The notes under the pieces: generated by a model
The model's database searches: none
What the model saw: only the letters and a program-made list of their open reading frames with translations
Told to the model about the DNA's origin: nothing
In this document: in pieces, positions 24,975 to 51,283 of the stretch
Position numbering within the stretch: position 1 is the stretch's first letter
Layout of the letters: every line of letters starts with the position of its first letter
From: Lachnospiraceae bacterium
GTDB taxonomy: Bacteria > Bacillota > Clostridia > Lachnospirales > Lachnospiraceae
NCBI GenBank assembly: GCA_017618195.1
Contig: JAFZUW010000046.1
Coordinates: 54,702 to 118,701 of the forward strand
Direction: 5' to 3'
DNA length: 64,000 bases
Made by a program: the position numbers and the translations under genes

Positions 24975-26831
24975 TCACTTCCCCGTTGTATCGGAGCCGT
25001 TCTTACGTTTCTTTAGGTACACGGCAAGGCATGCAATAAAAGCGGCCAGGCACGCGCCGACAGGTAAAATGACATAGATCGGCTTGAACGAGGTTTTGTC
25101 TGTCTGCTTTCCGCCTTTTGAAGGGACCTCGGTCGGTACGGCTGTGGGTTCCTCTGTCGGGATCTCGGTCGGCTTAACGGTCGGCGTCGGAGTCGGTATC
25201 GGGGTCGGGGTAGGCTCAGGAATCTTTTCAAAAACCACACGGACCGAAATATCGTCGTTCATTTTCACATAGCTGGTTCCTGCCTCTTCCGACGGTGTGC
25301 CCTTCAGATACAGAACATCCTTGAGCCGGTAGCCTTTATCGGGCGTTATATTGAGATACAGTACCGTATTCTTAAGGAACCGGTTTCCTTCCGCGGGGAT
25401 AAACGGAAACTGGGTGCCTTCGATATTCAAAGCGATTGTTCCGTTATCAAAGGTACGAACAGACGAGATACCGTAAGCGCATCTGGAATCCAGTGATCCC
25501 CACATATAGGTGAACATGTAGTTGTCGGTTTCCTGCTCATATACGGCGGCTGTTCCGCCCTCCTCAACCTCCATCGTGAACGTGTGATAAACCGGCTTCT
25601 TGGGACATACGAAGGTAAGCGAATGTTTTATCCCGTCGCCGTTAGCCGGAATCGTGTAGGATTTTCCGAGGCTGCAGGTATCCAAAACCACGATCACGGA
25701 CCGGTCGGAAGCGACCCTAAGGTCCGGCTTTCCGTTCTTATCGATATCAAAGTATCCCGGCTTATCCGGCATCTCATAAGACTTGATCGTGTCGACAACC
25801 GCATCCATCCCCTCTTTCGTATAGTAAGGGCTAATAATGATTCCCTTGCTCAGGTCAACCGAATATGCCGGCGTATCAAACTTGAGTATGACCGGATAAA
25901 ACGGACCGGAGGTATAACCCGGCATCTTGTATTCCTGCGGCACGCTGTGAATCGGAGTGCACCCGAGTGCACTGGTCGACTTCCACGGACTCACATACAC
26001 ATCATAGGTTCCGTCACCGTCGAGATCAATATACGACTCCGTTTCATCATAAGCCGCATTTTTACCGAGTGCCTCATAAAAGCAGCTGCTCTCTCCGTTA
26101 TACTGATCAAAGACGCTCCACTCCGGCATTCCGTTATCAAGATCCCCGGTTCTGAGCGTAATGGTAAGAGGTGTCTGATTCTTTATGACGGCGGAGATCT
26201 TCACATCGTGTGCAGGCATAATAAAAGATTTGACCATCTGATCTTCCCTCGGCGGAAAATGAAACTCATCAGACTTCCATTCCGCCACGTAACGCCCTTG
26301 ATAAGTATCCGCCATAAGGAGCAGATGCGTTCCCGGAGCGGCGGATGTAACCTTATGCAGGATTTTTTGATTGTTTTCGTCCCACTCTGTCGTATATGCA
26401 TATCCGCCGGAAACCGAAACCTTATACGCATTCTTTACATCCGCATTTCTGACGCGAAACGTTACGGACCGGAACGGATCTGCCTCGGTTCCGTTGATGG
26501 TTATCTCCCCGTTGACACTGCCGCCGGGAAGCGGATAGAAAACTCCGTCGCTGCTTCCGTACATTCTCGGGCTGTAATCAACGACGGCGACATCCGGTGT
26601 TCCGTCTTTGTCAAGATCTATCTGCCCATCGGTAAAATATTCAAAGATACCGCTGAGTCCCTCCTCTTCCGCAGGCCTTATAAACTTGAGATAGTAATAT
26701 CCCGAGGTCAGGTCGATCACAAAATCACGTTTTTCCTGCGGTTCCTCCGGTTCTTCCGCGGAAGCGGAAAGAACAAGACAGGAAACCATCAGACATACCA
26801 GAAGCCAAAGTCCCACACATTTCTTTCTCAT
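24975..26831 (-). CDS. Surface protein of the modular family (618 aa)
   Basis: A 618-residue surface protein with signal peptide (MRKKCVGLWLLVCLMVS), three DxDxDGxxD-type loops (IDLDKDGTPD, IDLDGDGTYD, FDIDKNGKPD), one SGGYA/SAAPG/FIMPAHDV repeat (about 145-225), a Thr/Pro linker (PTPTPIPTPTPT..., about 540-578), a membrane helix (about 585-606) and a basic tail (KKRKNGSD). The modules resemble divergent InlB B-repeats and EF-hand-like calcium loops. Function is unknown; it is likely to be exposed at the cell surface. Last of the contiguous group, 124 bases after the previous gene; RBS TTAGGAGAG precedes the start at 26831. Confidence 0.8.
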   Translation of the reverse strand: MRKKCVGLWLLVCLMVSCLVLSASAEEPEEPQEKRDFVIDLTSGYYYLKFIRPAEEEGLSGIFEYFTDGQIDLDKDGTPDVAVVDYSPRMYGSSDGVFYPLPGGSVNGEITINGTEADPFRSVTFRVRNADVKNAYKVSVSGGYAYTTEWDENNQKILHKVTSAAPGTHLLLMADTYQGRYVAEWKSDEFHFPPREDQMVKSFIMPAHDVKISAVIKNQTPLTITLRTGDLDNGMPEWSVFDQYNGESSCFYEALGKNAAYDETESYIDLDGDGTYDVYVSPWKSTSALGCTPIHSVPQEYKMPGYTSGPFYPVILKFDTPAYSVDLSKGIIISPYYTKEGMDAVVDTIKSYEMPDKPGYFDIDKNGKPDLRVASDRSVIVVLDTCSLGKSYTIPANGDGIKHSLTFVCPKKPVYHTFTMEVEEGGTAAVYEQETDNYMFTYMWGSLDSRCAYGISSVRTFDNGTIALNIEGTQFPFIPAEGNRFLKNTVLYLNITPDKGYRLKDVLYLKGTPSEEAGTSYVKMNDDISVRVVFEKIPEPTPTPIPTPTPTVKPTEIPTEEPTAVPTEVPSKGGKQTDKTSFKPIYVILPVGACLAAFIACLAVYLKKRKNGSDTTGK

Positions 26832-26955
26832 AATGTTTGCTCTCCTAACAATATCCATCTTTATTCAGCCCGGAAGCCGCCTTGTAAAGACGGCTCCGGA
26901 TCAGTATCCGTTTTCAAATCATCTGCGGATTGTTCCGCCTTCGCAATCCCCGGGA

Positions 26956-28971
26956 TCAGTCTTCCTTCGAAATCCTTCTGCGGCTCAGGAACACGCCCAG
27001 ACCCGCAAGAACGATAATGATTCCGCCGGCAACCAGAATGATCAGATTCAGATCGTTCCGTCCGCCTTTCTTACTGTCGGAGTCCTTCCGTGTGGGCACT
27101 GCAGTCGGCTGAGGAGTCGGCGCAGCCTCGGTTACGACGGGAGTCGGTTCCTCGGGCGTCTCTGTAGGCGCAACGGTAGGTACCGGCGTCGGATCGGGTG
27201 TCGGTGTCAGGTTCGGCAGATCCACGTAGCATTTAACCGCTATGGAACAGGCCGGCATCGTATACTCCAATGACTTGTCAGCCGGATGATACTCTTCCTG
27301 ATTGACGGTGACATATTTCAGTTTCGCATAATCCGGCAGCTGATCAAACAGCAGCAGGATTGTCTGCCCCTCATACGCACCCTTGATCGGGTTTCTTTTC
27401 TCCCAACTTACCGCCTCACAACCCATATCGATCGTGATCGGATAGAAAACCTTATCATCGTCGAAATGGCACTCGAAAGAGTCGTATTTGACCTCGTCAC
27501 GGATGATTTCGCCGGAGAAAAGCAGCTGGGTCGGATCAGGTTCCTTCGCGCCGGAATCGTCCTTCGCATTCATGACAATCTTCCCATCCGTAACAGCCGC
27601 GTGGAAGTCTTCGTATTCCTTGAGAAACGTCGACAGCCGGGGTTTCCATTCCACTGCCCATGCTCCCTGTTCCGCACCCGGAATCTCCCACTCCCAGCGG
27701 TCACCGTTCAGTTTGAAATCAAGCCGGAAGCTTTCCGCCGGCTTTTCGGCCGGGACAAATGTGATGTCGCGCGCCGGCATGACGGCGACACAATCTCCGT
27801 AGGTACTGTTCCAAACCCCTTCGGTATCCCGAAATCCGGCAAAGGCCTTCTTATTGCCTCCGTTATAAATGATCCGGATTCTTGTCCCGGGCGACGCTTC
27901 CCGTATTTCCCTGTTCAGGTCCGCATCAAGCGCATATCCGTCCTGCACGTTAATCTTATATGACCTCAGGATTTCCCAACTGTCATATACGAAAGTATAC
28001 GGCCAGTACATTCCGGATGTCATGTTGTCGTATTTGTATTCGCCGCGGATCTTCGTTTCCCCGAGCGGAACGAAGAATGCCGCAACACGGTCGCGGCCGT
28101 GAAAATCCTTGCTCAGTTTATAGCCGATCACAACGTCTTCCGACATGTCATAATCCAGCCGGATCTTTTCCATGGAATAATTGTAATACACTGTCATATA
28201 ACCGTCGAGATCCCCGAAGATGACTCCATACGGGTTAATCTCATCAGTACCCAGTTCACAGTATCCTTTGGTCATATCAATCCGAAGCGGCGTCTGCACT
28301 TCTATCTTAGCCGTCAGATTGACATTGGCGCGCGGCATAATAAAGAACACTTTGGACGGATCTCCGCCCTGAAAACGCTCGTAGACTCTGCCGTCGTCCG
28401 ACTTCCAGGACTCCACATAAGTACCCTTCATCGCATTTGCCGTAAGATACAGCTTATCTCCGGGCGCCGCAGACGTCACCGGATGTCCGCCGGGATCCAC
28501 AACGGTTCCCTTCGAAATCGAAATGCTGTACGTCTTTTTCCCCGGATTCTTTCCGAACCGGAAGATTACCGTACCGATTGTCTTGGTTCCCTTCACCGGC
28601 ACTTTATAATCGCCGTTGATGTTACAGCCGGCGAGCGGAACCGCCACAACGCCGTAATAGGTCTTGTCAAGCTCGTCTCTGTTCAGCATCAGATCCCACG
28701 AACCGTCGCCGTCCAGATCGAGCAGACATCTCGAGGCGCTCTTATAGGATTTGGCGTTAGTCTGCGTGCACAGATAATCCACCAGACCTTCTCCCGCCGT
28801 AAATCCGTTCTGATCCCAGATGTCATCCTTCGTCTGTTCCCAGTATCCGCCCGTCATGTCAATAACGGCGTCCTGCTTAGACGCATATGCGGGCTTCCGC
28901 ATCCGGGTAAACATTGCTGCGAGCAGCATGAAAACCATAAGCCCTGCTGCTCCGATCACTCTTCTTCTCAT
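26956..28971 (-). CDS. Surface protein of the modular family (671 aa)
   Basis: A 671-residue paralogue: signal peptide (MRRRVIGAAGLMVFMLLAAM), one clear DxDxDG loop (LDLDGDGSWD), a 'VIDMTGGYWEQ' leader repeat, an SISKGTVV/SAAPGDKL/FIMPRANV repeat, an extended beta-rich middle, a Thr/Pro linker (about 600-635), membrane helix and a basic end (SRRRISKED). It ends before the 618-aa gene and begins 28 bases after the 678-aa gene stop (29000). The start at 28971 has GGAGAG upstream. Same family as its neighbours; the DGYM in a second loop is degenerate. Confidence 0.8.
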   Translation of the reverse strand: MRRRVIGAAGLMVFMLLAAMFTRMRKPAYASKQDAVIDMTGGYWEQTKDDIWDQNGFTAGEGLVDYLCTQTNAKSYKSASRCLLDLDGDGSWDLMLNRDELDKTYYGVVAVPLAGCNINGDYKVPVKGTKTIGTVIFRFGKNPGKKTYSISISKGTVVDPGGHPVTSAAPGDKLYLTANAMKGTYVESWKSDDGRVYERFQGGDPSKVFFIMPRANVNLTAKIEVQTPLRIDMTKGYCELGTDEINPYGVIFGDLDGYMTVYYNYSMEKIRLDYDMSEDVVIGYKLSKDFHGRDRVAAFFVPLGETKIRGEYKYDNMTSGMYWPYTFVYDSWEILRSYKINVQDGYALDADLNREIREASPGTRIRIIYNGGNKKAFAGFRDTEGVWNSTYGDCVAVMPARDITFVPAEKPAESFRLDFKLNGDRWEWEIPGAEQGAWAVEWKPRLSTFLKEYEDFHAAVTDGKIVMNAKDDSGAKEPDPTQLLFSGEIIRDEVKYDSFECHFDDDKVFYPITIDMGCEAVSWEKRNPIKGAYEGQTILLLFDQLPDYAKLKYVTVNQEEYHPADKSLEYTMPACSIAVKCYVDLPNLTPTPDPTPVPTVAPTETPEEPTPVVTEAAPTPQPTAVPTRKDSDSKKGGRNDLNLIILVAGGIIIVLAGLGVFLSRRRISKED

Positions 28972-28999
28972 GAAACGCTCTCCTGTAAACACTCTTTCC

Positions 29000-31036
29000 T
29001 TATTGCTCTTTACGCTTTTTTGCCAATTTCAGATTGCGGCGGATGATGAGCAGGAATACCGTAAGTACAAGCAGAATGACTGCAATCAGAAGGATGGTTA
29101 CGGCATCCACGCCTTTTTTGAGTCCGGTCTTCTTCTCGGCCGCATCGGCGGTTCCGGGTTGATCCGGAACGGCCGTCGGTATGGGTGACGGGGTGTATTC
29201 CGGTGTTACGGTCGGTGTATCGGTCGGTTCCGGCGTTACGGTCGGAACATCCTCTTCTTCAAAGTGTTCGATTACCGTAATCGGTCCCTTCGGAGCGGCA
29301 TATTCCACGATACCGTTCACGGGGATATACTTTACATCGTTTATGAGGACGTAATCCGCCTTCTCATCCGCAAGGATCAGCACTTCCTGCCCCGCATAGG
29401 TCGCGCGGAGCGGAATCCTTCCGTATAGGCTGACAACGTTTCCTTCCGAGATCGGATATAACGTTACCGGTTCGCCGAACCGGAACTCAATCGCACAATA
29501 CGTATTCTCACCGAATCCGAGGTCATCTTCGAAATATCCCTGAACCGGATCCGGTCCGTAGAGCCCGCGGTCATCTTTCGCATTCATAATGAAAAGGCCG
29601 TTTTCGTACTTTATTCCGAACCGTTCATACTCGTTTGCAAATGTCCCCAAATACTCCGGAAAATACAACGCCCACGCCTCCGTATCGCTTTCCGGAACCG
29701 GGCATTCATAACGGCTGCCGTTCAGCTTGAAATTCAGCTTGTACACATCCGAATCATTCCGTTCCAAAACCGTCTGCTTATCGAGTTGCGATGCTGGCAT
29801 AAACCAGATGTCATGTGCCGGCATCACGATGAAATCCCAATCACTGTTCGATATGTCACTGTAATCCCATGTATGATCCTTATCTGAATATCCGTCTGTT
29901 CTTTCGTTATATTGGATTCTTAAAACCGTTCCGGGAGCCGCCTCGGTGACTTCCTTTCCGATCTTATTATCAAATGCGGTTCCGTTTTCAACCAAAATTT
30001 TGTATGTTTCCTGAACCGGCGAATCCGGAAATATAAATATGATCGGCCAATATGCTCCGGAATTAAGATCCCTTAATTCGTACTCACCGGTCATCTTCAG
30101 GTTGGCTGCAGGAATAAAGAATGCCGCCGTCCTGCTCTGCTGGTTGATCAGATCATAATTGTGTCTGTACTTGTATCCGAAACAGATGTCCCCTCCGCCG
30201 GTCTGCACAGTGAAACGGGATGTAAAAAAATTATTATATTTCGTTTCCTGCGAAAAGAGTCTGTTCCCGACAAGTATCGTGTTCGGATCGACAAGCGGTT
30301 CCCCGATCTCCCAAAAGCCTTCCGTAAGGTCTACTCTGAGCGGAGTCTGCTCTTCGACTGCCGCCTTCAGTTCTATATCGGCGCACGGCATAATAACCAT
30401 TACGCGCTCCGGATCCGCGCAGATGAATCTGCGGTATTCCCGCCCGCTGCCGTCCGTCCAGGATTTAACGTATCGGCCTTCCATCTTATCCGCGATCAAA
30501 AACAGTCGTTCCCCCGGTGCCGCGGAAGTTACCGTATATCCGGCGGAATCCACAATTCGGCAATTTTCGGCGGTGATGTTGAATTTGGCTCTGCCCGGAT
30601 TGGTCCCGAACCGGAAGGTCATCGTAAGGAAGCTGTCTCCGACCGCACGTTCCACCGTAAGGTCTCCGCTCACGCTGCACTCCGATGTCGGAACAATAAC
30701 CGTTCCGTAATATGCATATTCCGTATCCCCGGTGAAGATGGTGAAATCCCATGTTCCGTCCTTGTCCCAGTCGATATAAGCCTGCCTTGCGGTGTCCTTA
30801 CGCTCTGCTCCCGTGCGCTTGCACAAAAAGTCCGCGAGCGCGGCCCCGTCCTTTAAGCCGAGCCGGGCCATGAAATCGCCTTCGGTCTGTTCCCAGTATC
30901 CTCCGGAAAGATCAATGACGATATTGTCCGCCTGATCCGATTGGCCGCCCGCATGCGCCTTCTTACCGGCAAACGCCGTAACCAGCACGGCCAAAACCGT
31001 AATCAAGAGGGCAGTTACCTTCTTACTTCTCTTCAT
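29000..31036 (-). CDS. Surface protein of the modular family (678 aa)
   Basis: A 678-residue paralogue very similar in plan to the 671-aa neighbour: signal peptide (MKRSKKVTALLITVLAVLV), the repeat VIDLSGGYWEQTEGD, a DxDxDG loop (IDWDKDGTWD), AENCRIVDSAGYTVTSAAPGERL with FVMIMPCADIELKAA, a Thr/Pro linker (PTVTPEPTDTPTVTPEYTPS), membrane helix and basic tail (IIRRNLKLAKKRKEQ). It overlaps the 560-aa gene by 14 bases, so translation may be coupled. RBS GGAGAG precedes the start at 31036. Confidence 0.8.
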   Translation of the reverse strand: MKRSKKVTALLITVLAVLVTAFAGKKAHAGGQSDQADNIVIDLSGGYWEQTEGDFMARLGLKDGAALADFLCKRTGAERKDTARQAYIDWDKDGTWDFTIFTGDTEYAYYGTVIVPTSECSVSGDLTVERAVGDSFLTMTFRFGTNPGRAKFNITAENCRIVDSAGYTVTSAAPGERLFLIADKMEGRYVKSWTDGSGREYRRFICADPERVMVIMPCADIELKAAVEEQTPLRVDLTEGFWEIGEPLVDPNTILVGNRLFSQETKYNNFFTSRFTVQTGGGDICFGYKYRHNYDLINQQSRTAAFFIPAANLKMTGEYELRDLNSGAYWPIIFIFPDSPVQETYKILVENGTAFDNKIGKEVTEAAPGTVLRIQYNERTDGYSDKDHTWDYSDISNSDWDFIVMPAHDIWFMPASQLDKQTVLERNDSDVYKLNFKLNGSRYECPVPESDTEAWALYFPEYLGTFANEYERFGIKYENGLFIMNAKDDRGLYGPDPVQGYFEDDLGFGENTYCAIEFRFGEPVTLYPISEGNVVSLYGRIPLRATYAGQEVLILADEKADYVLINDVKYIPVNGIVEYAAPKGPITVIEHFEEEDVPTVTPEPTDTPTVTPEYTPSPIPTAVPDQPGTADAAEKKTGLKKGVDAVTILLIAVILLVLTVFLLIIRRNLKLAKKRKEQ

Positions 31037-32705
31037 TCTTTCTTCTCTCCTGCTGTTTCCCATGGGCGGAATCCCGTTCTTCCGGTTCCGTCTCAACTAT
31101 CCGGTTTCTGCTCCGCAGATACAAAGCAAATCCGGCTGCGGCCGATACCGCAACGACTGCGCTCAAAATAATCAAAACTATCGGAATAACCGATTTTTTC
31201 TCCTTGTCCGCTTCGCCCTTCACGGGTTCTTCCGATGCTCCCTGCGTGGGCTCCTTCACGGGATCTTCCGCTGTCGGGGAAGGTACTGCCGTTACCGCCG
31301 CGGTCGGTTCCGGAGTATTGTTCTCCTGCTTGCCTCCATCCGGATCAACCGGAGTCACTTCCGGTTCCACGGGATCATTTTCGTCCGGGATAACTTCCTC
31401 CGGCTTTTCTTTCGGGCACGGATTGATGCCTTTTCCTTTCAGCGTAAACGTATACGGCCGGTACTCCGGATTGTCAATCTCGGGAAGCGTGTAAACGTCT
31501 CCGAGGCTGTAGGAATCCAGGATATACAGCATCTTACATTTCATCCAGACCGGAATGTCCTCAATGTAGCGGTCTTCGGAATGTCCGATCAGGATGTCGG
31601 CGCTGCCGTCTCCGTCCAGGTCCAGCACATTCGGGTCTGCTTCCGTTCCGTAGCATCCCCTCATCCATTCGAAAACATTCTCATCCATATCCCAGGAATA
31701 ATTCCATGCGTACGCATATCCGCGGCTGAGGTCCACCTCGAAAGGATATTCCTTCCCTGAAAAATCCAGAATCAGCGGACTGTAAGGAGTCTTGTTCTCT
31801 CCGGTCAACTCATACAGTCCGCAGAAGCTTACGTAGTTTGGATATATTATCGCCGAACTATCACCGGACGGGGTAATATAAAAATCATAACTGCCGTCTC
31901 CGTCCAGATCTGCATACTCGTAATAATCCCCGACCAGTTCCACTCCCACCGTTTTTTTCAACGCCTGTTCCAAACTGGCGGACAGCGTTTCCATATGAGC
32001 GAGTTTCAACGGCTTCTGCTTTTCTATAACGGGTTCCAGTACAAGATCCGCGGCAGGCATATTGATTTCAATGTACGGACCGCCTTCCGGATTGAAATCC
32101 TTCGCAAAAGAAGGGAAACCTTCCGCCTTCCACGCTTTCACGTATGACCCCGTCATTTCATCCCCGACAATTTTGATATAAGTGCCGGGCGCTGCCGAAG
32201 TAACCGGATTCCCGTCTCGGTCGAGCGCCTGTCCGCCTTTTACCGTGATGGAATAGCTTTCGGCTACAGGTTCGTTTTCGAATACAAATACGATATAATC
32301 GTAGGCTAACGAAACATCCAACATATCGAACTTCCATCTGACCGGAACCGTAACAGCCCCCCGAATGCTGCCGCCATGGAGCGGAATCACATAGTTCTTC
32401 CAGGAAACCTTACAATCATAAGGACAATAGCACTCAAACATTACGTCATCGGTTCCGTCTGAATCAATATCCAGTTTCCCGCCTTTTAATTCTGCCGATT
32501 CTCCGAATATCATATAATCCGCAAACGCGAATTCAACATTCTGCATTTCATATCCCTTTGTAAGGTCGAACAGATAATACTCTCCCTCCTCCGGCGGATT
32601 CGCGCTCGAAACACCGGAAACACTCACGGAAAAGCACACCGCCAATGCAAGTAATACGGCGGCTTTCCATGTTTTTCGATTATTACTGTTCCTTTGAGCC
32701 TTCAT
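31023..32705 (-). CDS. Surface protein of the modular family (560 aa)
   Basis: A 560-residue paralogue: signal peptide (MKAQRNSNNRKTWKAAVLLA, cleaved around SSA-NPP), three DxDxDG loops (LDIDSDGTDD, ADLDGDGSYD, LDLDGDGSAD), one SGGQALDRDG/SAAPGTYIK repeat and the motif INMPAADLVLEPV. A Thr/Pro/Glu linker (about 450-505) precedes a membrane helix and a charged tail (RNRIVETEPEERDSAHGKQQ). AGAAGGAG lies upstream of the chosen start at 32705. It overlaps both neighbours. Confidence 0.8.
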   Translation of the reverse strand: MKAQRNSNNRKTWKAAVLLALAVCFSVSVSGVSSANPPEEGEYYLFDLTKGYEMQNVEFAFADYMIFGESAELKGGKLDIDSDGTDDVMFECYCPYDCKVSWKNYVIPLHGGSIRGAVTVPVRWKFDMLDVSLAYDYIVFVFENEPVAESYSITVKGGQALDRDGNPVTSAAPGTYIKIVGDEMTGSYVKAWKAEGFPSFAKDFNPEGGPYIEINMPAADLVLEPVIEKQKPLKLAHMETLSASLEQALKKTVGVELVGDYYEYADLDGDGSYDFYITPSGDSSAIIYPNYVSFCGLYELTGENKTPYSPLILDFSGKEYPFEVDLSRGYAYAWNYSWDMDENVFEWMRGCYGTEADPNVLDLDGDGSADILIGHSEDRYIEDIPVWMKCKMLYILDSYSLGDVYTLPEIDNPEYRPYTFTLKGKGINPCPKEKPEEVIPDENDPVEPEVTPVDPDGGKQENNTPEPTAAVTAVPSPTAEDPVKEPTQGASEEPVKGEADKEKKSVIPIVLIILSAVVAVSAAAGFALYLRSRNRIVETEPEERDSAHGKQQERRKNEEK

Positions 32706-34542
32706 CTGAAATCTCCTTCTCTTTCTTCTCATTCACATTGTTCTTCTTACGACTGCCGCGTAATATGATCACTGCCGCAGCCCCTCCGGCTGCAATGATA
32801 ACGGGAAGTATGATCCAAAGAGGATTCATGCCTTCGTCTCCGTCCTCTGCATTCTTTTCTTTCGCATCGGCCGCAGCCGTAGGTGCCGGAGTTGCTTCCT
32901 CGGTCGGAGCGGCTGTCGGCACGGGCGTTGCGGTCGGCACCGGCGTTGCCGTAGGAGTCGGTGTTACCGTCGGCTGCGGAAGTTTTTTAAATGTTACCGT
33001 AATTTCCGCATCGCCGTTCACGAGGAACAGGTTTTCATTTTCCTGCTGCGCATTATCCGAACCGGCGATCTCCGCCAATTGATAGCCATCCTCAGGCGCA
33101 GCCACAACGTATGCGTACATGCCGGCGGTAATCCGGTTCCCTTCGACTGCACGGAAAAGCCGTTTCTCATCACCGTGAACCAGAAGGATCGTATCTTCAG
33201 AGGTTCCTCTTTCCACACTGTCAAAATAGGCAACATAGCTGCTTCGGAAGAACAATTCCGCCTTTCCGCCTTCTCCGACCGAAAGCGAAACCGTATGGAA
33301 CTCCGGTGCTTTGCTGCATTTAAATGTAATCTTCTTACCGGCGCCGAAAACATCGTCCGCAGGAACTGAGTAGGCTTTCCCGAGACTGTATGTCGGAAGC
33401 GGGATCGCTTCCGCCCATCTTTCATCCGCGAGAACCCAGAAATCCGCATTCCCGTCCCGGTCTATGTCGTAATAATACGGCTTATCCGCCAACTCATACG
33501 TCTTCAGCCACTCGGACAGCGGTTTGCGGTAATAATTCCCCCAGTTTTTTATTGTACTGCTCAAATCAATCTCGTACGGAATGCGTCCGTCCTTGAAATT
33601 CAAAACAATACGGTTATAGCGTAATCCGGGTGCGTCCAGCTTCAGTGTAAATGTGTCTTTAACGCTTCGGAACGGAACCGCATGCGTGCTCCTTGAGTCT
33701 CCCCATTGGATGAACTCAATATCATATGTTCCGTCTCCGTCCAAGTCGTACAGTCCGGCAGCGTCCTCTATATTCATTGCCCTGATGATGGAAACAATCT
33801 CATCATCGGTCATCGGATCCTCATTGTCAGTCACGTTGATCGTTACCGTTTCCTGCGGTGCAAAAACCGCATTCACGGTCACATCGTGAGCAGGCATGAT
33901 AAAGCATCTGCAATAATTCGTAAAATAGTAATCCGTAGGGAAATTCATATTGTCGGACTGCCAGTTCTTCAGATACTTGCCGCTCGGGCATTCCGAGACC
34001 TCAACAGATATGAGCATTCCCGGTTCCGCTTTAACGACATACTCCTTCTCCCCTTCATTATATGCCTGACCTTTGTATGCTTTACATCCGTTCAGTTTAA
34101 TCGTGTATTCTTCCTTCACACCGGAAGGCGCCGGTTTAAACGTAACCGATTTAAACCCGTCCGCGTCCGTTCCCTTCAGAGTCACCGTATTCCGCAGGCT
34201 GTTTCCGGGAAGCGGTACCGCAAACGTCTGTGCCATACCGTATTCCGTATACTGTCTCGGGGCAAATACAACGTCGTAGGTTCCGTCTCCGTCAACATCC
34301 ATCTGATACACACCCTGAAAATCGAAGACATCGCCGTGTTCAACCTTTTTCATTCGTTCCGAAAACTGACCGAGCAACATTTCGGCTGAAAAACCGCCCT
34401 GGCAGATGCAATACCCTTTGTTCCCGAAATCAACGGTGTAAGAAGGTTTCTCGGAACCTTCCGCCTTGACAGCCGGTACCGCGCAGAACATTACCGCACA
34501 CAGAATTACGGTCAATACCGCATACATTTTCTTTCTCATCAT
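32683..34542 (-). CDS. Surface protein of the modular family (619 aa)
   Basis: A 619-residue paralogue with signal peptide (MMRKKMYAVLTVILCAVMF), three DxDxDG loops (MDVDGDGTYD, YDLDGDGTYD, YDIDRDGNAD), one repeat with FIMPAHDVTVNAV, a Thr/Pro linker (PTVTPTPTATPVPTATPVPT), membrane helix, and a Lys/Glu-rich tail. Its ATG overlaps the stop of the 924-aa gene (ATGA, 34539-34542), a classic sign of translational coupling. Stop at 32683 lies within the next gene. Confidence 0.82.
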   Translation of the reverse strand: MMRKKMYAVLTVILCAVMFCAVPAVKAEGSEKPSYTVDFGNKGYCICQGGFSAEMLLGQFSERMKKVEHGDVFDFQGVYQMDVDGDGTYDVVFAPRQYTEYGMAQTFAVPLPGNSLRNTVTLKGTDADGFKSVTFKPAPSGVKEEYTIKLNGCKAYKGQAYNEGEKEYVVKAEPGMLISVEVSECPSGKYLKNWQSDNMNFPTDYYFTNYCRCFIMPAHDVTVNAVFAPQETVTINVTDNEDPMTDDEIVSIIRAMNIEDAAGLYDLDGDGTYDIEFIQWGDSRSTHAVPFRSVKDTFTLKLDAPGLRYNRIVLNFKDGRIPYEIDLSSTIKNWGNYYRKPLSEWLKTYELADKPYYYDIDRDGNADFWVLADERWAEAIPLPTYSLGKAYSVPADDVFGAGKKITFKCSKAPEFHTVSLSVGEGGKAELFFRSSYVAYFDSVERGTSEDTILLVHGDEKRLFRAVEGNRITAGMYAYVVAAPEDGYQLAEIAGSDNAQQENENLFLVNGDAEITVTFKKLPQPTVTPTPTATPVPTATPVPTAAPTEEATPAPTAAADAKEKNAEDGDEGMNPLWIILPVIIAAGGAAAVIILRGSRKKNNVNEKKEKEISDEGSKEQ

Positions 34543-37313
34543 TCTTCCTCACTTGCGGCTTCATCTGCCGTTTTTTCTTCCTGCGTTTTTTCGGCTTCAT
34601 CTGCCGTTTTTTCTTCCTGCGCGGCTGCGGCTTCGCCTGCCGGTTTTTCTTCGTGCGCGGCCTCTGCTTCATCCGCCGTTTTTTCTTCCTTCACGGCGGC
34701 TTCGCCTGCCGGTTTTCTTCTGTTCCGCAGTACAAGCCATACCGCTTCTGCTGCCAGCAGTATCACTCCCACCGGAATTATTACGAAAAGGATGTTAAAT
34801 CCTCCGTTTGATTCCACGTCCTGCTTCTGCCCGGTTCCGTTGTCCGAAGCCGCTTCCGTCGGAATCACGGTGGGTTCACCGGTGGGTACACCCGTGGGAG
34901 TCACAACAGATGTAGGATCCGGGGTAGGTGTAGGTGCGGAAGTCGGTTTCGGTGTAAGATGAAACACGAAAGAAACGGTTGTATTTTCATTCGGCATGGA
35001 AAAACCGAGTCCGTCTTTTGGGAAGGCGCCCATGGTCTCACCATCAAACAGGACACTCTCATTGCTTGCTGTAATCAAAGAGATCTGTTTGATTTCAAGA
35101 TGGCTCGCCGCCATCAGTTCAATCGGGAGACGGATCGTAACGGTGCTTCCCGTCGGTGCATATCCCTCAAGAATATATTTGTACTGTTTTTCAAGCGCAA
35201 GTTCAATCGCTCGTGATACGTTCGGATAATTAAACCCCGATCCGTTATCCAGTGAATACTTCTTTTTAAGACTCCGTCCGTGAATTCCCGTCACCGTAAT
35301 GTTATGATCCGGCATTGTTATGTACAGTGCCGTACTGCTGTAATTCCCCGGCACAATCATTTTGCCCTTAATATCCCCGGTATCCCAGCCGATCACATCA
35401 TTACCTTTATAGGTGTAAGGCCAAATCCTTAAGGTATCGCCTTTTGCGGCACGGCAGCCGTAACCGTTTCCAGTTACCGTTTCCGCATAACCGTCGATGA
35501 CTTTAACCGTGTGATACACCTCCGGATCCAGAATCGAATCATCATCAACAACAAATGTGATCGGTCCGTACGGTCCGTCTTTCACCGGAATAGTCGCTTC
35601 TTTTCCCAAACTGTATTCGCAATTACGGAATGCATACTGTTTATCAAGCTTCTCCTCACCGGGATTATAATTTGCTGCCTCATCCATAAAGATGTAAAGA
35701 TTAAAATCGATTGATCCGTCATCATCCAGATCTATCCAACTGGAGAAATGTCCGTCATTATTTGCCAAAGCCGCATTAATGACAATCGCGGTTTCCCTGC
35801 TCGTTTTCTCAACCCATTCCAGATAATTCGTCACATTTACCGTATACGGGGTTTGCTTTGACACCGTCTCCGCCGTAATCGTAACATCCCGCGCAGGCAT
35901 CACAAAACCGAATGAAATCTTATCCTTTTCAATACCGCCGCAATCTGCCTTCCATGCCTTCCAATACTTACCGGGCTGCGGATCATGAATGATTCTGACC
36001 CATTTCCCTGCTGCCGCAGACTGTACTGTTTTGCCGTCCGCATCCTCGGCATGCCCGCCGACAACGGTAATTGCGTACTCACCTTTTTTCTTTCCGAATT
36101 TAAATGAAATCGGCCAATATCTGCCGGAATTGGTTCCTTCCAGTGTGAAAGTTCCGCTGATACTGCATGTTTCACAAGGAGACCACAGATCAAATACGTT
36201 CCAAGCCGATTCACCGATCTGAACATCCGCTGTTCCGTCACCATCCAGATCATACCTTAAATCATCATTATACGCATACGCATCCCCATATAGGGATTGA
36301 TTAATGCAGTGCGCGACTTCAAGCGGAACGGTTACATTGCCTTTCGTGAAATCAATCGTATACGGCTTCTTGGAGGCCGTGACCGAACGCAAGGTCATAT
36401 CTCCTGCCGGCATCAGGAACACATCATCCGTCCCGACAGCTTTTTCATACCGGATACCATAGAACTCATCAAAATCCGTCCCCCCGTCTGCCTCCCAACC
36501 TTGCAGATAGGATTCGTTATTTTCCTCATAATGCAGATAAACCCACTGTCCGGGTGCAGCCTCCGTGATCACGTTCCCGTTTTGATTTCTTGCTTCTCCT
36601 CCGGAAACGGAGACTTTATAAGCTTCCTTAACGGGTTCCGGTCCGAAATCTATCGTAACCGGCCAATACGGAAGCACACTCGGTTTATCAAGCACAATAC
36701 TTCCCTGAATGCTGCTTCCGGGAAGTGCTGACATAAAGACATGGCATTCCGTACTCGAAGGTACGTCCCAAACATATATTTTGGCATCCTTCGTTCCGTC
36801 TCCGTCAAAATCGAAATCCGTGACGCTTGCCTCTCCTTTGTAGTAATCCTTATAGAAACTGAGCCCTGATACCTCATAAAGATACTGCATCATTTCCTGC
36901 GCCTGGGACGATTGGGCGGAAATCACATAATCTCTTTGTCCGGAGGAAAATGCATCGGGAATTCGAGACGGCTTCGTCAGATCGAAGGAATACGGAGTCT
37001 GAGTTTTTTCTACAGGAGTTACTTCCACGTCCTTTGCGGGCATGGTAAAGGAATAACCATGGTCCTTAATCGGGGTACCGTTAACCTTCCATTCATACAC
37101 ATACACTCCCTCCCGGGGCTCAATGCATAAATAAACGGTAAAACCCTGCTCCGCTTCGGTAATTACGTTTCCCAAGCCGTCAACGGCATATCCGCCGGTC
37201 ACACTGATTTTGTATTTCTTTCCGCTGTCGGCGGGAGCCCTGTTTCCCAATGCAGCGGCAAATCCGACCGCAAGGATCATCAGAAACAGTCCCGTCATTC
37301 TTCTCATTTTCAT
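34539..37313 (-). CDS. Surface protein of the modular family (924 aa)
   Basis: A 924-residue paralogue with signal peptide (MKMRRMTGLFLMILAVGFAA), three DxDxDG loops (FDFDGDGTKD, YDLDGDGTAD, IDLDDDGSID), at least three SGG/SAA(P/A)G/FMPAxDV repeats, a Thr/Pro linker (PTSAPTPTPDPTSVV) and a membrane helix. The cytoplasmic tail is a repeat array of EEKTADEA-like units ending ADEAASEEE. It starts at 37313, where GGAGGG is 8 bases upstream; an earlier TTG exists in frame. First of six nearly contiguous family genes. Confidence 0.82.
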   Translation of the reverse strand: MKMRRMTGLFLMILAVGFAAALGNRAPADSGKKYKISVTGGYAVDGLGNVITEAEQGFTVYLCIEPREGVYVYEWKVNGTPIKDHGYSFTMPAKDVEVTPVEKTQTPYSFDLTKPSRIPDAFSSGQRDYVISAQSSQAQEMMQYLYEVSGLSFYKDYYKGEASVTDFDFDGDGTKDAKIYVWDVPSSTECHVFMSALPGSSIQGSIVLDKPSVLPYWPVTIDFGPEPVKEAYKVSVSGGEARNQNGNVITEAAPGQWVYLHYEENNESYLQGWEADGGTDFDEFYGIRYEKAVGTDDVFLMPAGDMTLRSVTASKKPYTIDFTKGNVTVPLEVAHCINQSLYGDAYAYNDDLRYDLDGDGTADVQIGESAWNVFDLWSPCETCSISGTFTLEGTNSGRYWPISFKFGKKKGEYAITVVGGHAEDADGKTVQSAAAGKWVRIIHDPQPGKYWKAWKADCGGIEKDKISFGFVMPARDVTITAETVSKQTPYTVNVTNYLEWVEKTSRETAIVINAALANNDGHFSSWIDLDDDGSIDFNLYIFMDEAANYNPGEEKLDKQYAFRNCEYSLGKEATIPVKDGPYGPITFVVDDDSILDPEVYHTVKVIDGYAETVTGNGYGCRAAKGDTLRIWPYTYKGNDVIGWDTGDIKGKMIVPGNYSSTALYITMPDHNITVTGIHGRSLKKKYSLDNGSGFNYPNVSRAIELALEKQYKYILEGYAPTGSTVTIRLPIELMAASHLEIKQISLITASNESVLFDGETMGAFPKDGLGFSMPNENTTVSFVFHLTPKPTSAPTPTPDPTSVVTPTGVPTGEPTVIPTEAASDNGTGQKQDVESNGGFNILFVIIPVGVILLAAEAVWLVLRNRRKPAGEAAVKEEKTADEAEAAHEEKPAGEAAAAQEEKTADEAEKTQEEKTADEAASEEE
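34545..34705 (-). repeat. Tandem repeat encoding EEKTADEA-like units
   Basis: The 3' end of the 924-aa gene encodes at least five imperfect copies of an 8-18 residue unit (EEKTADEAE, EEKPAGEAA, EEKTADEAEK). The DNA copies differ at wobble bases and indels, so the array seems kept for its charged peptide rather than by recent slippage. Confidence 0.7.
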
Positions 37314-37386
37314 GCCCAAAACCCTCCACTCATACCATTTCGGAAATACTATTATCGGGATAACCGCATCTCATTCAAACGCACGA

Positions 37387-38879: not shown

Positions 38880-39146
38880 TTATTCAATCAATGCTCCGGA
38901 ATTTCGGATTCCGTCCACAAACTTCCGCACCTGTTCACGGAAGAACTCTTCGGTTCCTTCGTATTTGGCCATCAAATCGGAAACCATCTTATCCTCGGTC
39001 GTGTCCTCCTTCAGCATCTCAAGCATGATCTTGCCGCTCTTGTTCATCTTGACAAGGGCAGAGAACTCTTCCGCATTCTCTCCGACTGCAACGGCAACGT
39101 AGCGGTCGCCGAGCTCACGGATAATAAACTCATACTTCAGTTTCAT
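38880..39146 (-). CDS. PqqD-like (RRE-fold) small protein
   Basis: An 88-residue protein with the PqqD/RiPP recognition-element pattern: MKLKYEFIIRELGDRYVAVA, VKMNKSGKIMLEMLKED, then YEGTEEFFREQVRKFVDGI. In RiPP pathways such domains present a precursor peptide to a modifying enzyme. None of those partners (radical SAM, LanB, precursor) is adjacent here, so its role is open; orphan copies are common in Firmicutes. It overlaps the 1008-aa surface-protein gene by 17 bases and precedes citrate synthase. The start at 39146 follows GGAACAG; a longer frame exists. Confidence 0.75.
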   Translation of the reverse strand: MKLKYEFIIRELGDRYVAVAVGENAEEFSALVKMNKSGKIMLEMLKEDTTEDKMVSDLMAKYEGTEEFFREQVRKFVDGIRNSGALIE

Positions 39147-42100
39147 CGTCTGTTCCTTTCTCCGCCGAAGCAGTCTCGTTCGGCGTATCGGTTTCATATA
39201 CCTCTGCCTCCGGGTCTTTCAAAGCAGGGGTTTCCTCGGAAACCGCTGTCTCCTCAGAAGGATCTTCCTCCTTCTGTTCCGTTACGGCTTCGGCAGTTGT
39301 CTCAGCCGCCGTATCCGGCCCGTCACCGTCCGCCTTTGCTGCGGCAGCGGCTTTCCTGCCTTTACGATTATACAATATAATCACGGCAGTTGTCACGGCA
39401 ATTATGAAAGCAAATGCGGGAATCAGAATAAACCAGGGATTAACTCCGTCCTTTCCCTCAGGTTCATCCTTCTTCTCGGGTTCCTCTTCCTTTTCAGGCC
39501 CATCGTCCTTCTTCGGTTCTTCCGGTGTGGGTGTTACAACCTTTTTGGTTTGGAATACCGCCGTGATCGTCGTATTTGCCTCCGGCATGGTAAACCGGTA
39601 GGAACCGTTCTCTGATACCGCTTCACACTTTGCGCCGTTCTCATCGAGGTAATAGACCGCAACCGGTTCGATCGTATCCGGAACGGAATCTTTCAGAACA
39701 ATCCGGACCGAAATTCCTCCGCGGAGTGCGGTCATGGAAGCCCACTCGCGATCCGTTGCCGCTTCGGTAATGTCCATATTGGTCCGGAAGCAAAGGTGCT
39801 GACCGAGAGAAGCATCTTCCTGACCGTCAAGTACTACGATCCAGTCGGTCTTCCGGCCGAAGATAAACCGGAATGACCCGTATCGGCCGGACAGATTCTG
39901 TTCCGTTTCAAAATCCTCGGTAAGCGAACCTTCCTCGCCGGCTTTTGTGAAAGCCAGTTCGGGGTATTCTTCTTTCACGGTCGCCGTGTAAATCACATCC
40001 GGGATTCCGTCGCGGTTTAAGTCTAACGTACCTTCCGTATCCGTGGACTCTTCATCGGCATACGGTTTCAATGCGTCCGCAACCGAAATGCCCTGATAAA
40101 CGGCAGGCAGCAGGAAGGAACCGCCGGTAAGATTGATGTCAAGCGGAACCTGCTTTTCCAGTTTCTTCTCGATTGTGATTACGATGTCGTAATCCGGCGT
40201 GGAAAACTCCTGCCGGTCAGGATTTCCGTCACCGTAAGAGATTTCGCCGTACGAACTTTCAGCCGTCCACCCGGCAACATACATTCCCTTTTCGACATCC
40301 GTCAAATCCGGAACAATGTATACCTTTCTGGCCGGTCTGGCACTCGTAACCTCCGTTCCGTCCGGAGCATATGCCTTTCCGCCGACAACGGTAATCGAAT
40401 ACTCTTTCTCCTTCGAGAATCCGGCCGGTCTTTTGGCGACAATCCTGATCGGAGCATATATTCCGTCCGGAGGCGTAATCGTAAGTCCTTCTTCAAAGTT
40501 GAAGGACAAGGCTGCGTTCAGTTCTCCGCAATTCCAAAGATCTCCGGGATATGACGTATCCATTGCGGAATTGATCATGATATCATAGTATCCGTCATCA
40601 TCGAAATCAACCAGACCGTTATCTTCCCGGTCTCCCATAAAGTAGATTGCATTTCTCAATCGGTTGAAATCGGCATCCTTTTCGGTTAATCCGTTTGTCA
40701 GATTGATCACAAGCCGGTTTTGCCGGTTCGTTGTTTTGGCCTTAACGGTAATATCCCTTGCCGGCATGTAGAAGTTCGGCGCAACAAAGGTCTTATCAAT
40801 ACCGGAGAAGTCCGTCTCCCACGAAGTCCAGTATTCACCTTCCGTCAGATCGGGGATTATGAACACCTCCGTTCCGGGAGCCGCAGAGGTGATTGCTTCG
40901 GTAACATAATCGCTTATCCCGTCGTCCCATTCACGCGTAACGGCATGACCGCCGACAACCGTAATCTCATAAGCCGGCTTAACTTCGCCGATTTTGATGG
41001 TGATTGGCCAATACTGACCGCTGTTCAACCCGTCAACTCTATATGACCCGGTCACGCTGCAGGTATCGCAGGGGGTAATCGTAATCTGCTGATTTAAGAA
41101 AGAATACTCCGTCTTGATATCGGTGGTGCCGTTCCTGTCCAGATCCGGATTAAACAGGTTCCAGCCGGAAGGGTCGACGGACTGTCCGAGACAATATCCG
41201 ACGTCATATCCGATAACCGCCTGTCCCTTGGTAAGATCAATGGTATAAGGGCGCTTATAACCGGTTACCGCGCGAAGCGTCAGATCCCGCGCCGGCATGA
41301 TAAAACTTTCATCCATTCCGGCGTAGTTCGTATATTCTCTTCGATCCGAAAAATAATAGTAAGAATGAAAATTGCTTATTCCGTCTGCTTTCCATTCCTT
41401 AAGCCAGGTCTTGTCCGACCATTCGTAATGAACACGGACGTACTGTCCCGGGATGGCAAATGTAATCACATTTCCGTCACGATCCGCCGCATAACCGCCG
41501 TTCACCGTAATGGCATAGGTCTCTTTCACCGGATTCTTTCCGAAACGCACGACAACCGGCCAATACGGAAGAGCGTTCGGTTTATCAATCTTGTAATCCC
41601 CGCGCACGGTTCCGCCGGGAACCGCCGTCATAAAACCGTCTTCACAGTCATACAGAACATATCTGATTCTTGCCTCCGGAATGTTGTCGCCGTCGAAATC
41701 GTAATACTGTTCCCGGTTGTCATCTTCCGTAAACGGAACGTTCTCCTTCAGATAATCGGTAACGGTCTGCGTCAGACCGGTCCCGTACAACAGCAGATAG
41801 TCATGGTCACCGGGAAGCCTTGCGGTACTTGTCAGATCCAGAATGAGCGGCTGCTGGCTCTTGCGGACTGCGGTAACCAGAACGTTTCCTTCAGGCATTC
41901 TGAAAGTATTGTCGTCTCCGAGACTGGTTCCGTTTAACTTCCATTCGCTGACATACGTTCCGGACTGAATATCCGGAACAAGCATCACGGAATCCCCGGG
42001 CTTCGCTTTGGAAACCTCTTCACCGTCCACGTAAGCTTTTCCGCCGGAAACGGTAATGGTATATGTTGCATCGGCCGCGGAAACAATCCTTCCGGACCAT

Positions 42101-42156
42101 AACGCGCATACCGACACGATCAGCATCAGCAGCCAAACCGCTTTGTTTCTTCTCAT
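39130..42156 (-). CDS. Surface protein of the modular family (1008 aa)
   Basis: A 1008-residue paralogue, the largest. Signal peptide (MRRNKAVWLLMLIVSVCALW), four DxDxDG-type loops (YDFDGDNIPE, PDLDRNGTTD, VDFDDDGYYD, LDLNRDGIPD), about four SGGKA.../SAAPG/FxMP repeats, then a Pro/Glu linker, a membrane helix (NPWFILIPAFAFIIAV) and an 80-residue acidic tail ending DETEV. It opens with YTITVSGGKAYVDGEEV, a divergent InlB-type B-repeat. It sits 56 bases after the protease gene and overlaps the PqqD-like gene. Start at 42156 preceded by GGGGG. Confidence 0.82.
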   Translation of the reverse strand: MRRNKAVWLLMLIVSVCALWSGRIVSAADATYTITVSGGKAYVDGEEVSKAKPGDSVMLVPDIQSGTYVSEWKLNGTSLGDDNTFRMPEGNVLVTAVRKSQQPLILDLTSTARLPGDHDYLLLYGTGLTQTVTDYLKENVPFTEDDNREQYYDFDGDNIPEARIRYVLYDCEDGFMTAVPGGTVRGDYKIDKPNALPYWPVVVRFGKNPVKETYAITVNGGYAADRDGNVITFAIPGQYVRVHYEWSDKTWLKEWKADGISNFHSYYYFSDRREYTNYAGMDESFIMPARDLTLRAVTGYKRPYTIDLTKGQAVIGYDVGYCLGQSVDPSGWNLFNPDLDRNGTTDIKTEYSFLNQQITITPCDTCSVTGSYRVDGLNSGQYWPITIKIGEVKPAYEITVVGGHAVTREWDDGISDYVTEAITSAAPGTEVFIIPDLTEGEYWTSWETDFSGIDKTFVAPNFYMPARDITVKAKTTNRQNRLVINLTNGLTEKDADFNRLRNAIYFMGDREDNGLVDFDDDGYYDIMINSAMDTSYPGDLWNCGELNAALSFNFEEGLTITPPDGIYAPIRIVAKRPAGFSKEKEYSITVVGGKAYAPDGTEVTSARPARKVYIVPDLTDVEKGMYVAGWTAESSYGEISYGDGNPDRQEFSTPDYDIVITIEKKLEKQVPLDINLTGGSFLLPAVYQGISVADALKPYADEESTDTEGTLDLNRDGIPDVIYTATVKEEYPELAFTKAGEEGSLTEDFETEQNLSGRYGSFRFIFGRKTDWIVVLDGQEDASLGQHLCFRTNMDITEAATDREWASMTALRGGISVRIVLKDSVPDTIEPVAVYYLDENGAKCEAVSENGSYRFTMPEANTTITAVFQTKKVVTPTPEEPKKDDGPEKEEEPEKKDEPEGKDGVNPWFILIPAFAFIIAVTTAVIILYNRKGRKAAAAAKADGDGPDTAAETTAEAVTEQKEEDPSEETAVSEETPALKDPEAEVYETDTPNETASAEKGTDDETEV

Positions 42157-46623: not shown

Positions 46624-46627
46624 CGTG

Positions 46628-48117: not shown

Positions 48118-48141
48118 TTTACTACCCCCTCGCTGTTATTT

Positions 48142-48741
48142 TTATAAAATTCCCTCCTTGATCAGCAGTTCCCGCATGGCGCGAAGCGCTCTGCCGCGAT
48201 GGCTGATCTCGTTCTTCTGTTCGGGCGGAAGCTCCGCCGTCGTAACGCCTCTGTCGGGGAGCAGGAATATCGGATCGTAGCCGAATCCGTTGGTTCCCGC
48301 CTGCCGGTCGTTGATCACGCCTTCGACCGTGCCGCGTACCACCCACTCACGTCCGTCCGGCATCGCGCATGCGATTGCGCATACGAACCGCGCCGTACGC
48401 TCCTCAAACGGGACCTTCATCGCCTGCTCAATGATATAATTGTTCTTCACATCGTAAGAAGTGTCCTCGCCCATGAACCGCGCGGAATAAATCCCGGGCG
48501 CGCCGTCCATGCAGTCCACAACGAGTCCGGAATCGTCCGCCATCGCCATGATATTGCCCGCCTTGCTGACTGCGCGCGCCTTGATGAGCGCGTTGTCCTC
48601 AAACGTCTTTCCGTCCTCGACAATGTCCGCCTCGATCCCGGCTTCCTTCATCGAAAGAATCTCCGGAATGCTGTCTCCGAGAATCTCCCTGATTTCTCTC
48701 ATCTTTCCTTGATTGCCTGTGGCAAATACCAGTGTTTTCAT
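48142..48741 (-). CDS. rdgB: XTP/dITP pyrophosphatase RdgB (HAM1)
   Basis: A 199-residue nucleotide-sanitising enzyme hydrolysing XTP, ITP and dITP to monophosphates. Signature motifs: MKTLVFATGNQGKMREIREIL, then MADDSGLVVDCMDGAPGIYSARFMG, and FGYDPIFLLPDRGVTTAELP. The start at 48741 is the family start; a longer frame runs back into the surface-protein gene. It follows that gene by 10 bases, so the two may share a transcript. Confidence 0.95.
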   Translation of the reverse strand: MKTLVFATGNQGKMREIREILGDSIPEILSMKEAGIEADIVEDGKTFEDNALIKARAVSKAGNIMAMADDSGLVVDCMDGAPGIYSARFMGEDTSYDVKNNYIIEQAMKVPFEERTARFVCAIACAMPDGREWVVRGTVEGVINDRQAGTNGFGYDPIFLLPDRGVTTAELPPEQKNEISHRGRALRAMRELLIKEGIL

Positions 48742-48751
48742 ACTATTGTCC

Positions 48752-51283
48752 TTATAGATATTCTTCGTCTTCCTTTTCTTCATCCCCGGACTCATCCTGT
48801 TCTTCCGTCTGCTCTTTCGGGGGTTCCTCATCTTCTTCGGTCTCCTCATACGGAGGTTCCGCAAAATCCTCGTCCTCCATGTCACGCTGCCGTCTCCGCG
48901 CAGCCAGTTTCTCTCGACGAAGTTTTTCCTTTTCCGCTTCCTTCCGGTTACGGATCACACAATAAGCAACACCTCCGCCGAAAGCCAGAATCACTGCCAG
49001 AACGGCAAAAACAAGCAAAACGGTACCGCCTTTTTTGCTCTTACCCGCCGGCTTTTCGGCAGGCTTTCCGGACGACTCGTTCTTCTGACCTTCTCCTTCA
49101 TCGGGAGCTGATGTCGGCGTAATCTCCGGCCGGTCTTCGGTCTTCCGGTTACAGACAAATGTGATCGGATAATATTTCTGCCCGTGATTCGCGTCTTTAA
49201 TTGTATACGACGTCGGGCAGCTGTAATCGCCGAGCCGTCGTATTTTCCTTCCGAGGTCGTCCTGCTTCACATCCCACTGTCCGTCCCCGTTTAAATCATA
49301 CATTTGTCCGTTACTGCTTATGCGGATACCGGTTCTCTCGATGGATTTCCAAATCTCAGGGTCGGAAATATCCGCATTTCCGCTGCTCAGATCTATCGTA
49401 AGAGGAGTCTGTTTGCTTGTATCCACCTTCTGAAATACCGGTTTCAATTCGATTTCATGATCCGGCATGATAAACCGCCAATAATACCCGTTATACTCCA
49501 TAAAAAAGTCTTTTGCTTCAAACCCCAGGAACTCATAACCATCCTCCTCAGTCAATCTACTCTTATTAACATACAGAACCTGGTCCGCGGCAGAAGCCAC
49601 AATCCGGATCCCGGGATTTTCGTCAGGCTGATTATAGTATACCTTTATTGCTTCATCGGTGCATACTATCGGATAAAGCGTTTTCCCTTGAAATCTTATA
49701 TCTATTTCGGTATAGGTTTCCTCATCGGTTATAAACGGTTCCTGTAAAGAATACCCTAAGGAATAATAATCCCCCCATCCGAAATTTGTTAATCTCAGTG
49801 CCCTATCAACTACACTCGGCTCATATCCGGAAATAAACCGAAAGATTTGCTCTCTTTTGCTCTCATTGTTTTTCAGTGCGTCTGCAACAGCTTCCGGAAG
49901 AACTGCCCGGTAGGAATCACCATCCAAATAGAAAGAAAGCTCAAGTGTCTTCCCTTCATTCGGGAGAGCTTTATACGAGAGGGCGCAGGCAGGCATGGCA
50001 ATTTCTTCCCGTAACCGTTTTACGCTTCTTTCGCCCTCCCAAGTCCAATCTTTATATAAGTTTTCATATTGCGGCGAAGATATGAGGCCTGCTGTTGCTC
50101 CCTGCGAACCGTCATAAATGATCCGGATTGCTTCTCCCGGGGCGGCTTCGGTAATGGTTCTTCCGTTCATGTCTTCCGCATGACCTCCGGTCACGGTAAC
50201 GGGATACAGGTTATTTACGGCTTTCTGCGGAAAAACAAACGTATAAGGCCAATAGGGTGAGAGACTTTGTCCCGCAGTTGAGTACGTTCCGTTGATACTG
50301 CCCGTCGAAAGAGGGATAAAGTATACACGGTCCGGGAAACGGCCGTATTTGTCCTCGGTATACCCGGTGAAACAGCAGATTATATCAAAAGAGCCGTCTT
50401 GGTCCAGGTCCATCCTGTATGTGGAAACCTGAGAATATTCATCCATATTGTCGGATGCTGCAAAAGAAAGGTCCAGATCAATATAATTCGGCTCAAGATA
50501 ATAATCTCCGTCCGCCAGACAAAAACCCTCTGTCATATCAAAACTAAGCGGCTGCTGTTTCTCAGTCGCCGCCTTCATGCTGACATCCGATGCAGGCATG
50601 AAAAACGATACACTTTCGCACCAACGGTTTTCCATATTGTCATATCGGGAAAAACTGCCGATTACATCGGATTTCCAGGAAGAAACATACTCGCCTTCAA
50701 GCACATCCGGAACAAGAATAATACTCACGCCGGGCGCCGCAGAAGTAATCGTACGGCCGTCCGATGATTCGGCATGTCCTTTTTCAACCGATATCGAATA
50801 CTCATTTTTAATCGGCTCATCGGGGAAGATAAAGGTAACCGTATCATATTTCCGATAGCTTTCATAATCTATCTTACCGACAGGAAGAGAGAATCTTCCG
50901 TGAGCGCTGCATTCCACGGTCGGAATAAGACACCACATAGCCGGAGTCGGATACTCTTCATACGGATAGTTATATCCTCCGGTCTCAAAATCCGGCGTTC
51001 CGTCCCCGTCAACATCTCCCGAAAAAATACACCAGTCAACGTTGTTCTGTTCACAGATTTTTACCGCATTCTTTACGGCCATGCAAACTTTGGCATTATA
51101 GTACCAGCCTGCGTCTTCAAACACCTCATATCCGTCACGAAGGTCAATTACCAGTTCTTCTCCCTGACTGCCTTCGCCCTCCGGTTCGCCTGCGCGGGCG
51201 GGCGCGGCATTCACCGCAAAAGTAAGCAGTATGAGCAGCGTCATCAGTACACGAATCAGGTTCTTAAGCTCTGTAGGTTTCAT
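48752..51283 (-). CDS. Surface protein of the modular family (843 aa)
   Basis: An 843-residue paralogue located apart from the main group. Signal peptide (MKPTELKNLIRVLMTLLILL), leader repeat VIDLRDGYEVFEDAG, three DxDxDG loops (GDVDGDGTPD, MDLDQDGSFD, YDLNGDGQWD), two SGG/SAAPG/FFMPASDV repeats (FFMPASDVSMKAA), a short linker, a membrane helix, and a cytoplasmic tail first basic (KEAEKEKLRREKLAARRRQR) and then very acidic (DEEPPKEQTEEQDESGDEEK). Its Thr/Pro linker is short and Lys/Ser-rich instead, unlike the cluster members. Followed by rdgB. Confidence 0.82.
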   Translation of the reverse strand: MKPTELKNLIRVLMTLLILLTFAVNAAPARAGEPEGEGSQGEELVIDLRDGYEVFEDAGWYYNAKVCMAVKNAVKICEQNNVDWCIFSGDVDGDGTPDFETGGYNYPYEEYPTPAMWCLIPTVECSAHGRFSLPVGKIDYESYRKYDTVTFIFPDEPIKNEYSISVEKGHAESSDGRTITSAAPGVSIILVPDVLEGEYVSSWKSDVIGSFSRYDNMENRWCESVSFFMPASDVSMKAATEKQQPLSFDMTEGFCLADGDYYLEPNYIDLDLSFAASDNMDEYSQVSTYRMDLDQDGSFDIICCFTGYTEDKYGRFPDRVYFIPLSTGSINGTYSTAGQSLSPYWPYTFVFPQKAVNNLYPVTVTGGHAEDMNGRTITEAAPGEAIRIIYDGSQGATAGLISSPQYENLYKDWTWEGERSVKRLREEIAMPACALSYKALPNEGKTLELSFYLDGDSYRAVLPEAVADALKNNESKREQIFRFISGYEPSVVDRALRLTNFGWGDYYSLGYSLQEPFITDEETYTEIDIRFQGKTLYPIVCTDEAIKVYYNQPDENPGIRIVASAADQVLYVNKSRLTEEDGYEFLGFEAKDFFMEYNGYYWRFIMPDHEIELKPVFQKVDTSKQTPLTIDLSSGNADISDPEIWKSIERTGIRISSNGQMYDLNGDGQWDVKQDDLGRKIRRLGDYSCPTSYTIKDANHGQKYYPITFVCNRKTEDRPEITPTSAPDEGEGQKNESSGKPAEKPAGKSKKGGTVLLVFAVLAVILAFGGGVAYCVIRNRKEAEKEKLRREKLAARRRQRDMEDEDFAEPPYEETEEDEEPPKEQTEEQDESGDEEKEDEEYL

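Follow-up and report, generated by a model that had tools for sequence, protein, structure and literature searches.

A 64,000-nucleotide stretch of a Lachnospiraceae bacterium (contig JAFZUW010000046.1, positions 54,702 to 118,701; hereafter the window) encodes eight long proteins, A to H, in which two kinds of module, X and R, are chained between a hydrophobic N-terminus and a C-terminal helix. Proteins of this X-R family occur in only part of the genus, their genes are present or absent at given sites in different genomes, and one gene, H, lies in a tract that is nearly identical to that of another species. We consider, with a probability of roughly 0.55, that the X-R proteins are rod-like proteins of the cell surface, each held by a single pass through the membrane, which make up a repertoire peculiar to the clade and act most likely as adhesins or surface receptors. 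All eight genes begin with ATG, contain no internal stop, and match in position and length what had been given in a preliminary description of the window (Table 1). The coupled overlaps noted there were also recovered, between F and E (34539-34542), E and D (32683-32705) and D and C (31023-31036). Genes F to A make up a contiguous run of six, the citrate synthase gene separates G from them, and H stands apart; the host genome comprises 2.75 Mb in 82 contigs.

X is a module of ~100 aa with a DLTxGY leader and a single DxDxDGxxD loop. R is a module of ~85 aa with the pattern GGxA...AAPG...W...FxMPAxDV and corresponds to Pfam family PF18998, the InlB B-repeat. The preliminary description had proposed one shared plan with the DLTxGY leader first. 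The eight genes do share a common plan, but its units are two distinct modules, and F and G start with R instead. The curated PF18998 cut-off of 23.6 bits was exceeded by four of the eight proteins (A, E, F and G), while B (23.3 bits) and H (13.5 bits) fell below it and C and D had no listed match. The fold matches listed for a predicted model pointed tentatively to the InlB B-repeat for R and hardly covered the X half. X gave no match above any curated cut-off in profile searches, and its better PDB matches span little besides the DxDxDGxxD loop. In 38 open reading frames (ORFs), iterated profiles detected 106 X and 94 R modules scoring 13 to 98 bits, a result that is circular for the rows used as seeds. 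Since composition shuffles of the 45 family ORFs (20 each) reached at most 8.1 bits for X and 3.2 bits for R, these modules are beyond chance. The loop pattern is present in 113 of 123 X modules; the ten without it include the second X of B and the second X of C. In its Asp-rich loop X resembles FG-GAP/integrin propeller repeats. However, X has one loop per ~100-residue unit and alternates with R, and FG-GAP profiles match few X modules: 5/73 reach E <=0.01 with each of two FG-GAP models, and no window family protein scores above cut-off.

The system had been put forward as undescribed, a view that would be contradicted if its modules matched an established family of known function. The Pfam-type profile search proposed in that connection found half of this contrary outcome, because R belongs to PF18998, whereas X matches no family above cut-off. 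The R match does not settle function, PF18998 being a family of structural repeats. X remains an undescribed extracellular module, and its combination with R is likewise undescribed; the literature listings on PF18998, its names, InlB B-repeat proteins and related terms, in a coverage that mostly excludes subscription journals, showed no paper describing an X-R family.

N-terminal stretches and C-terminal helices were called by hydropathy only. The N-terminal hydrophobic stretch was found in 41 and the C-terminal helix in 42 of the 45 family ORFs, and both occur together in 8/8 window genes. In these eight genes the linker before the helix is often Pro/Thr-rich or charged, and basic residues follow the helix. 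A hydrophobic N-terminus, a linker and a single C-terminal helix point to predicted anchored surface proteins. Hydropathy and the pairing of R with X in SLH-anchored proteins from distant genomes support, at the level of predicted features, the earlier assignment to the envelope. LPxTG was absent from the last 120 residues of all 45 family ORFs (other sortase motifs were not searched), and the host genome has one sortase match above cut-off. The same architecture could belong to sensors, whose ectodomain would bind a ligand and whose charged cytoplasmic tail would signal. Charge and a length of up to 83 residues in certain tails would suit this role, but tail length varies over the whole range from 5 to 83 residues and the Pfam matches of the eight window proteins include no signalling domain, so that we give this reading very little credence.

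Fibrillar adhesin-like proteins, as presented in the accessible part of PMC9210967, are long and have repeated modules and a predicted surface anchor. By export, anchoring, repeats and variable segments, the X-R proteins would fit this class: they share its length, its repeated modules (X and R, which may form the stalk) and, if the predicted C-terminal helix serves as one, its surface anchor. They differ from the class as set out there in that the Pfam matches of the eight window proteins include no known adhesive domain and LPxTG is lacking. R resembles the InlB B-repeat/Flg_new_2 repeat (PF18998) by profile and perhaps by predicted fold, but in the X-R proteins it takes turns with X, and a single membrane helix is the predicted anchor. 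For Flg_new proteins of gut archaea, a role in attachment has been proposed (PMC9723798, accessible part).

The X profile matches 6/22 genomes of the genus, and these group together, in keeping with the host-lineage restriction suggested earlier. In a citrate synthase tree of 20 genomes (without G211 and G215), the six carriers form one side of a branch supported at 100/100. In an EF-Ts tree, also of 20 genomes (without G200 and G216), four carriers group with G211, which lacks X, and the branch holding carriers alone is supported at 74/86 only. X is rare in wider samples, which overlap in genomes: 2/397 genomes of the family, 2/398 of the phylum and 4/391 of the class, own genome included in each. 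The other family genome, G102, was set aside as a carrier, its match consisting of the Asp loop only, without R. BLAST of H against 200 family genomes gave a match at 1e-8 in its own genome only. R (PF18998), by comparison, is widespread, in 20/22 genus genomes. BLAST of C found matches in 14/22 genus genomes, compared with the six that have X; the eight further genomes were not counted, as the matches listed fall in the linker/helix part of C (residues 527-698).

Outside the genus, six X proteins were found in four distant genomes among those sampled, with weak matches (E 6e-9 to 3e-4). R stands alongside X in all six, five have SLH, and several also have Big_2, Flg_new or DUF6273; the protein without SLH carries a Cthe_2159 carbohydrate-binding domain. 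The own genome encodes an additional DUF6273 protein holding one X. Unlike SLH-anchored S-layer proteins and five of these six distant proteins, none of the eight window proteins has an SLH domain listed among its Pfam matches. The X-R pairs within SLH proteins elsewhere, together with the presence of numerous similar long proteins, might indicate structural envelope proteins, akin to a non-crystalline S-layer and without a specific ligand. A lattice should use near-identical copies, however, and the best within-genome family matches, among the matches listed, are ~28 to 56% identical, with the nearest module lying in another genome for 87/120 X and 77/94 R. A purely structural role is therefore highly unlikely in our view.

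The fetched loci of six genomes contain 45 X- or R-bearing ORFs (G000 15, G200 10, G218 8, G204 6, G206 5 and G216 1); the counts refer to these loci alone, and three of the genomes have a completeness of 79-86%. Two of the G200 ORFs are fragments (267 and 127 aa); the two short family fragments at locus L057 of that genome (52-1377) are probably remnants of one broken gene. When X modules were mapped to their genome of origin, 69 changes were counted against a shuffled mean of 68.1, in a short alignment with many unresolved forks. The X-R repertoire thus appears to be old, because modules do not cluster by genome and nearest modules sit in other genomes. Species-specific expansion was rejected on the same lack of clustering, save in G200 (21 changes against a shuffled mean of 26.8; 1/500 shuffles as low). 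Recent internal duplication was rejected as the module source, the nearest module being in the same protein for 0/120 X and 2/94 R. Switching by inversion or slippage was also rejected: at a minimum length of 24 and a seed of 14, 24900-51400 showed direct repeats, all of them short, and no inverted ones.

Genomes differ in the presence of family genes at individual sites. Three flanking genes are 81-90% identical between G000 and G218, against 30-38% for the best family matches. Downstream of citrate synthase, the next member is a family gene in 5/6 genomes (in G206, ~800 bases off). G200 has family genes to either side of citrate synthase, two other genes intervening on one side. A syntenic stretch from horse faeces, L073, lacks both citrate synthase and family genes; it retains the trypsin-like protease with two Flg_new repeats that adjoins family genes in the window (42213-43739). 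The tsf-pyrH interval holds two family genes in G000, one in G218 and an unrelated gene in G206. Of 20 tsf loci, seven show pyrH inside the short stretch that was fetched, with no family gene in the interval, and ten show no pyrH within that stretch. G204, whose EF-Ts is 99% identical, is among the seven.

H and its G204 copy are ~98% identical in DNA (50 differences in 2532 bases) and 96.3% identical in protein. Synonymous divergence (dS; Nei-Gojobori counts, pairwise alignments) from G204 is 0.033 for H but 0.39-1.71 for eight other window genes: citrate synthase 0.39-0.40, Ham1 0.44-0.50, PqqD 0.60, RlmL 0.65, binding protein 0.70, the gene at 23241-24770 0.70, helicase 1.27 and HtrA 1.71. 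ORFs that we judged to be overlapping antisense ones were dropped, as were two neighbours of C66 whose best matches reach only 38-40% identity (dS ~2.4). Given this gap in dS, the best explanation is that H moved recently by recombination, passing from one of the two species to the other or reaching them from a common donor. An assembly chimera seems unlikely because identity is 98% rather than 100% and the edges are graded, but it keeps some probability, as the named relatives are metagenome-assembled genomes (MAGs). The C66 pair is also low (0.22-0.23, against 0.43-1.09 for five neighbours), and the C30 pair (0.68) lies inside the range of its neighbours. In Clostridioides difficile, S-layer cassettes are exchanged by homologous recombination within one species (PMC7677006, accessible part). 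Homologous recombination would diversify surface genes in both cases, but the X-R case concerns two species and another family. A second short stretch ~99-100% identical to G204 lies at 52392-52691, beside a tRNA-Arg gene.

Exchange between two species of a tract with H at its centre, along with the high turnover of the family, would also be expected of a variable coat driven by phage, in which exposed receptors or shields swap alleles to evade adsorption. Against this, tblastn of F gave no match in 50,697 phage records, and the six short peptide patterns searched among viral contigs revealed no relative of C, neither being a test of receptor use. We regard a phage-driven coat as unlikely. Carriage by mobile elements was rejected, with no F match in phage or plasmid records and no C relative in viral contigs by those six peptide patterns.

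We favour adhesins or surface receptors. X-R proteins would be exported by a signal peptide, presumably cleaved, and alternation of X and R would build a rod, which calcium held by the DxDxDGxxD loop of X may stiffen. The single membrane helix would anchor the protein, with the Pro/Thr-rich or charged linker spanning the wall, and contact with the ligand would fall to the variable segments lying among conserved core positions. Old paralogues would be kept while copies are gained and lost at sites, and homologous recombination would carry alleles between species. Adhesion, a ligand and selection for diversity are what we infer in this scheme. It is a distinctly long shot that X is a new calcium-binding extracellular domain within an old, exchangeable X-R set for surface identity or partner recognition whose alleles cross species. 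H is a clear example of a surface gene that probably crossed gut-bacterial species when adjacent genes did not, X adds an undescribed module to the known extracellular repertoire, and X-R genes offer concrete material for asking what maintains surface diversity in gut communities.

Table 1. Coordinates of the X-R family genes and associated features in the window
Feature	Position	Strand	Remarks
Family gene A	24975..26831	-	X-R-X-X, 618 aa
Family gene B	26956..28971	-	X-R-X-R-R, 671 aa
Family gene C	29000..31036	-	X-R-X-R, 678 aa
Family gene D	31023..32705	-	X-R-X-X, 560 aa
Family gene E	32683..34542	-	X-R-X-X, 619 aa
Family gene F	34539..37313	-	R-X-R-X-R-X-R, 924 aa; leads F-to-A array
Family gene G	39130..42156	-	R-X-R-X-R-X-R-X-R, 1008 aa
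Family gene H	48752..51283	-	X-R-X-R-R-X, 843 aa; probable recent interspecies exchange
Candidate promoter, F-to-A array	37351..37378	-	consensus matches 9/12; such sites in scan: 19 vs 16.2 in shuffles
Tract ~98% identical to G204	48600..51350		identity declines both sides; edges approximate

Within 24000-53000, a search for regulatory RNA gave nothing but tRNAs above threshold. An imperfect tandem repeat with a 36-base unit (34554-34697) encodes the acidic tail of F. A small PqqD-domain protein (38880-39197) adjoins citrate synthase and has matches in G204, G206 and L073. The window helicase matches four contigs, from Lachnospiraceae MAGs (goat omasum, water buffalo omasum and horse faeces) and Lachnoclostridium sp. 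UBA1241. Elsewhere in the own genome, locus L069 encodes a cohesin protein and an adjoining protein with a dockerin match slightly below the Pfam cut-off (6843-8432 and 8456-11329).
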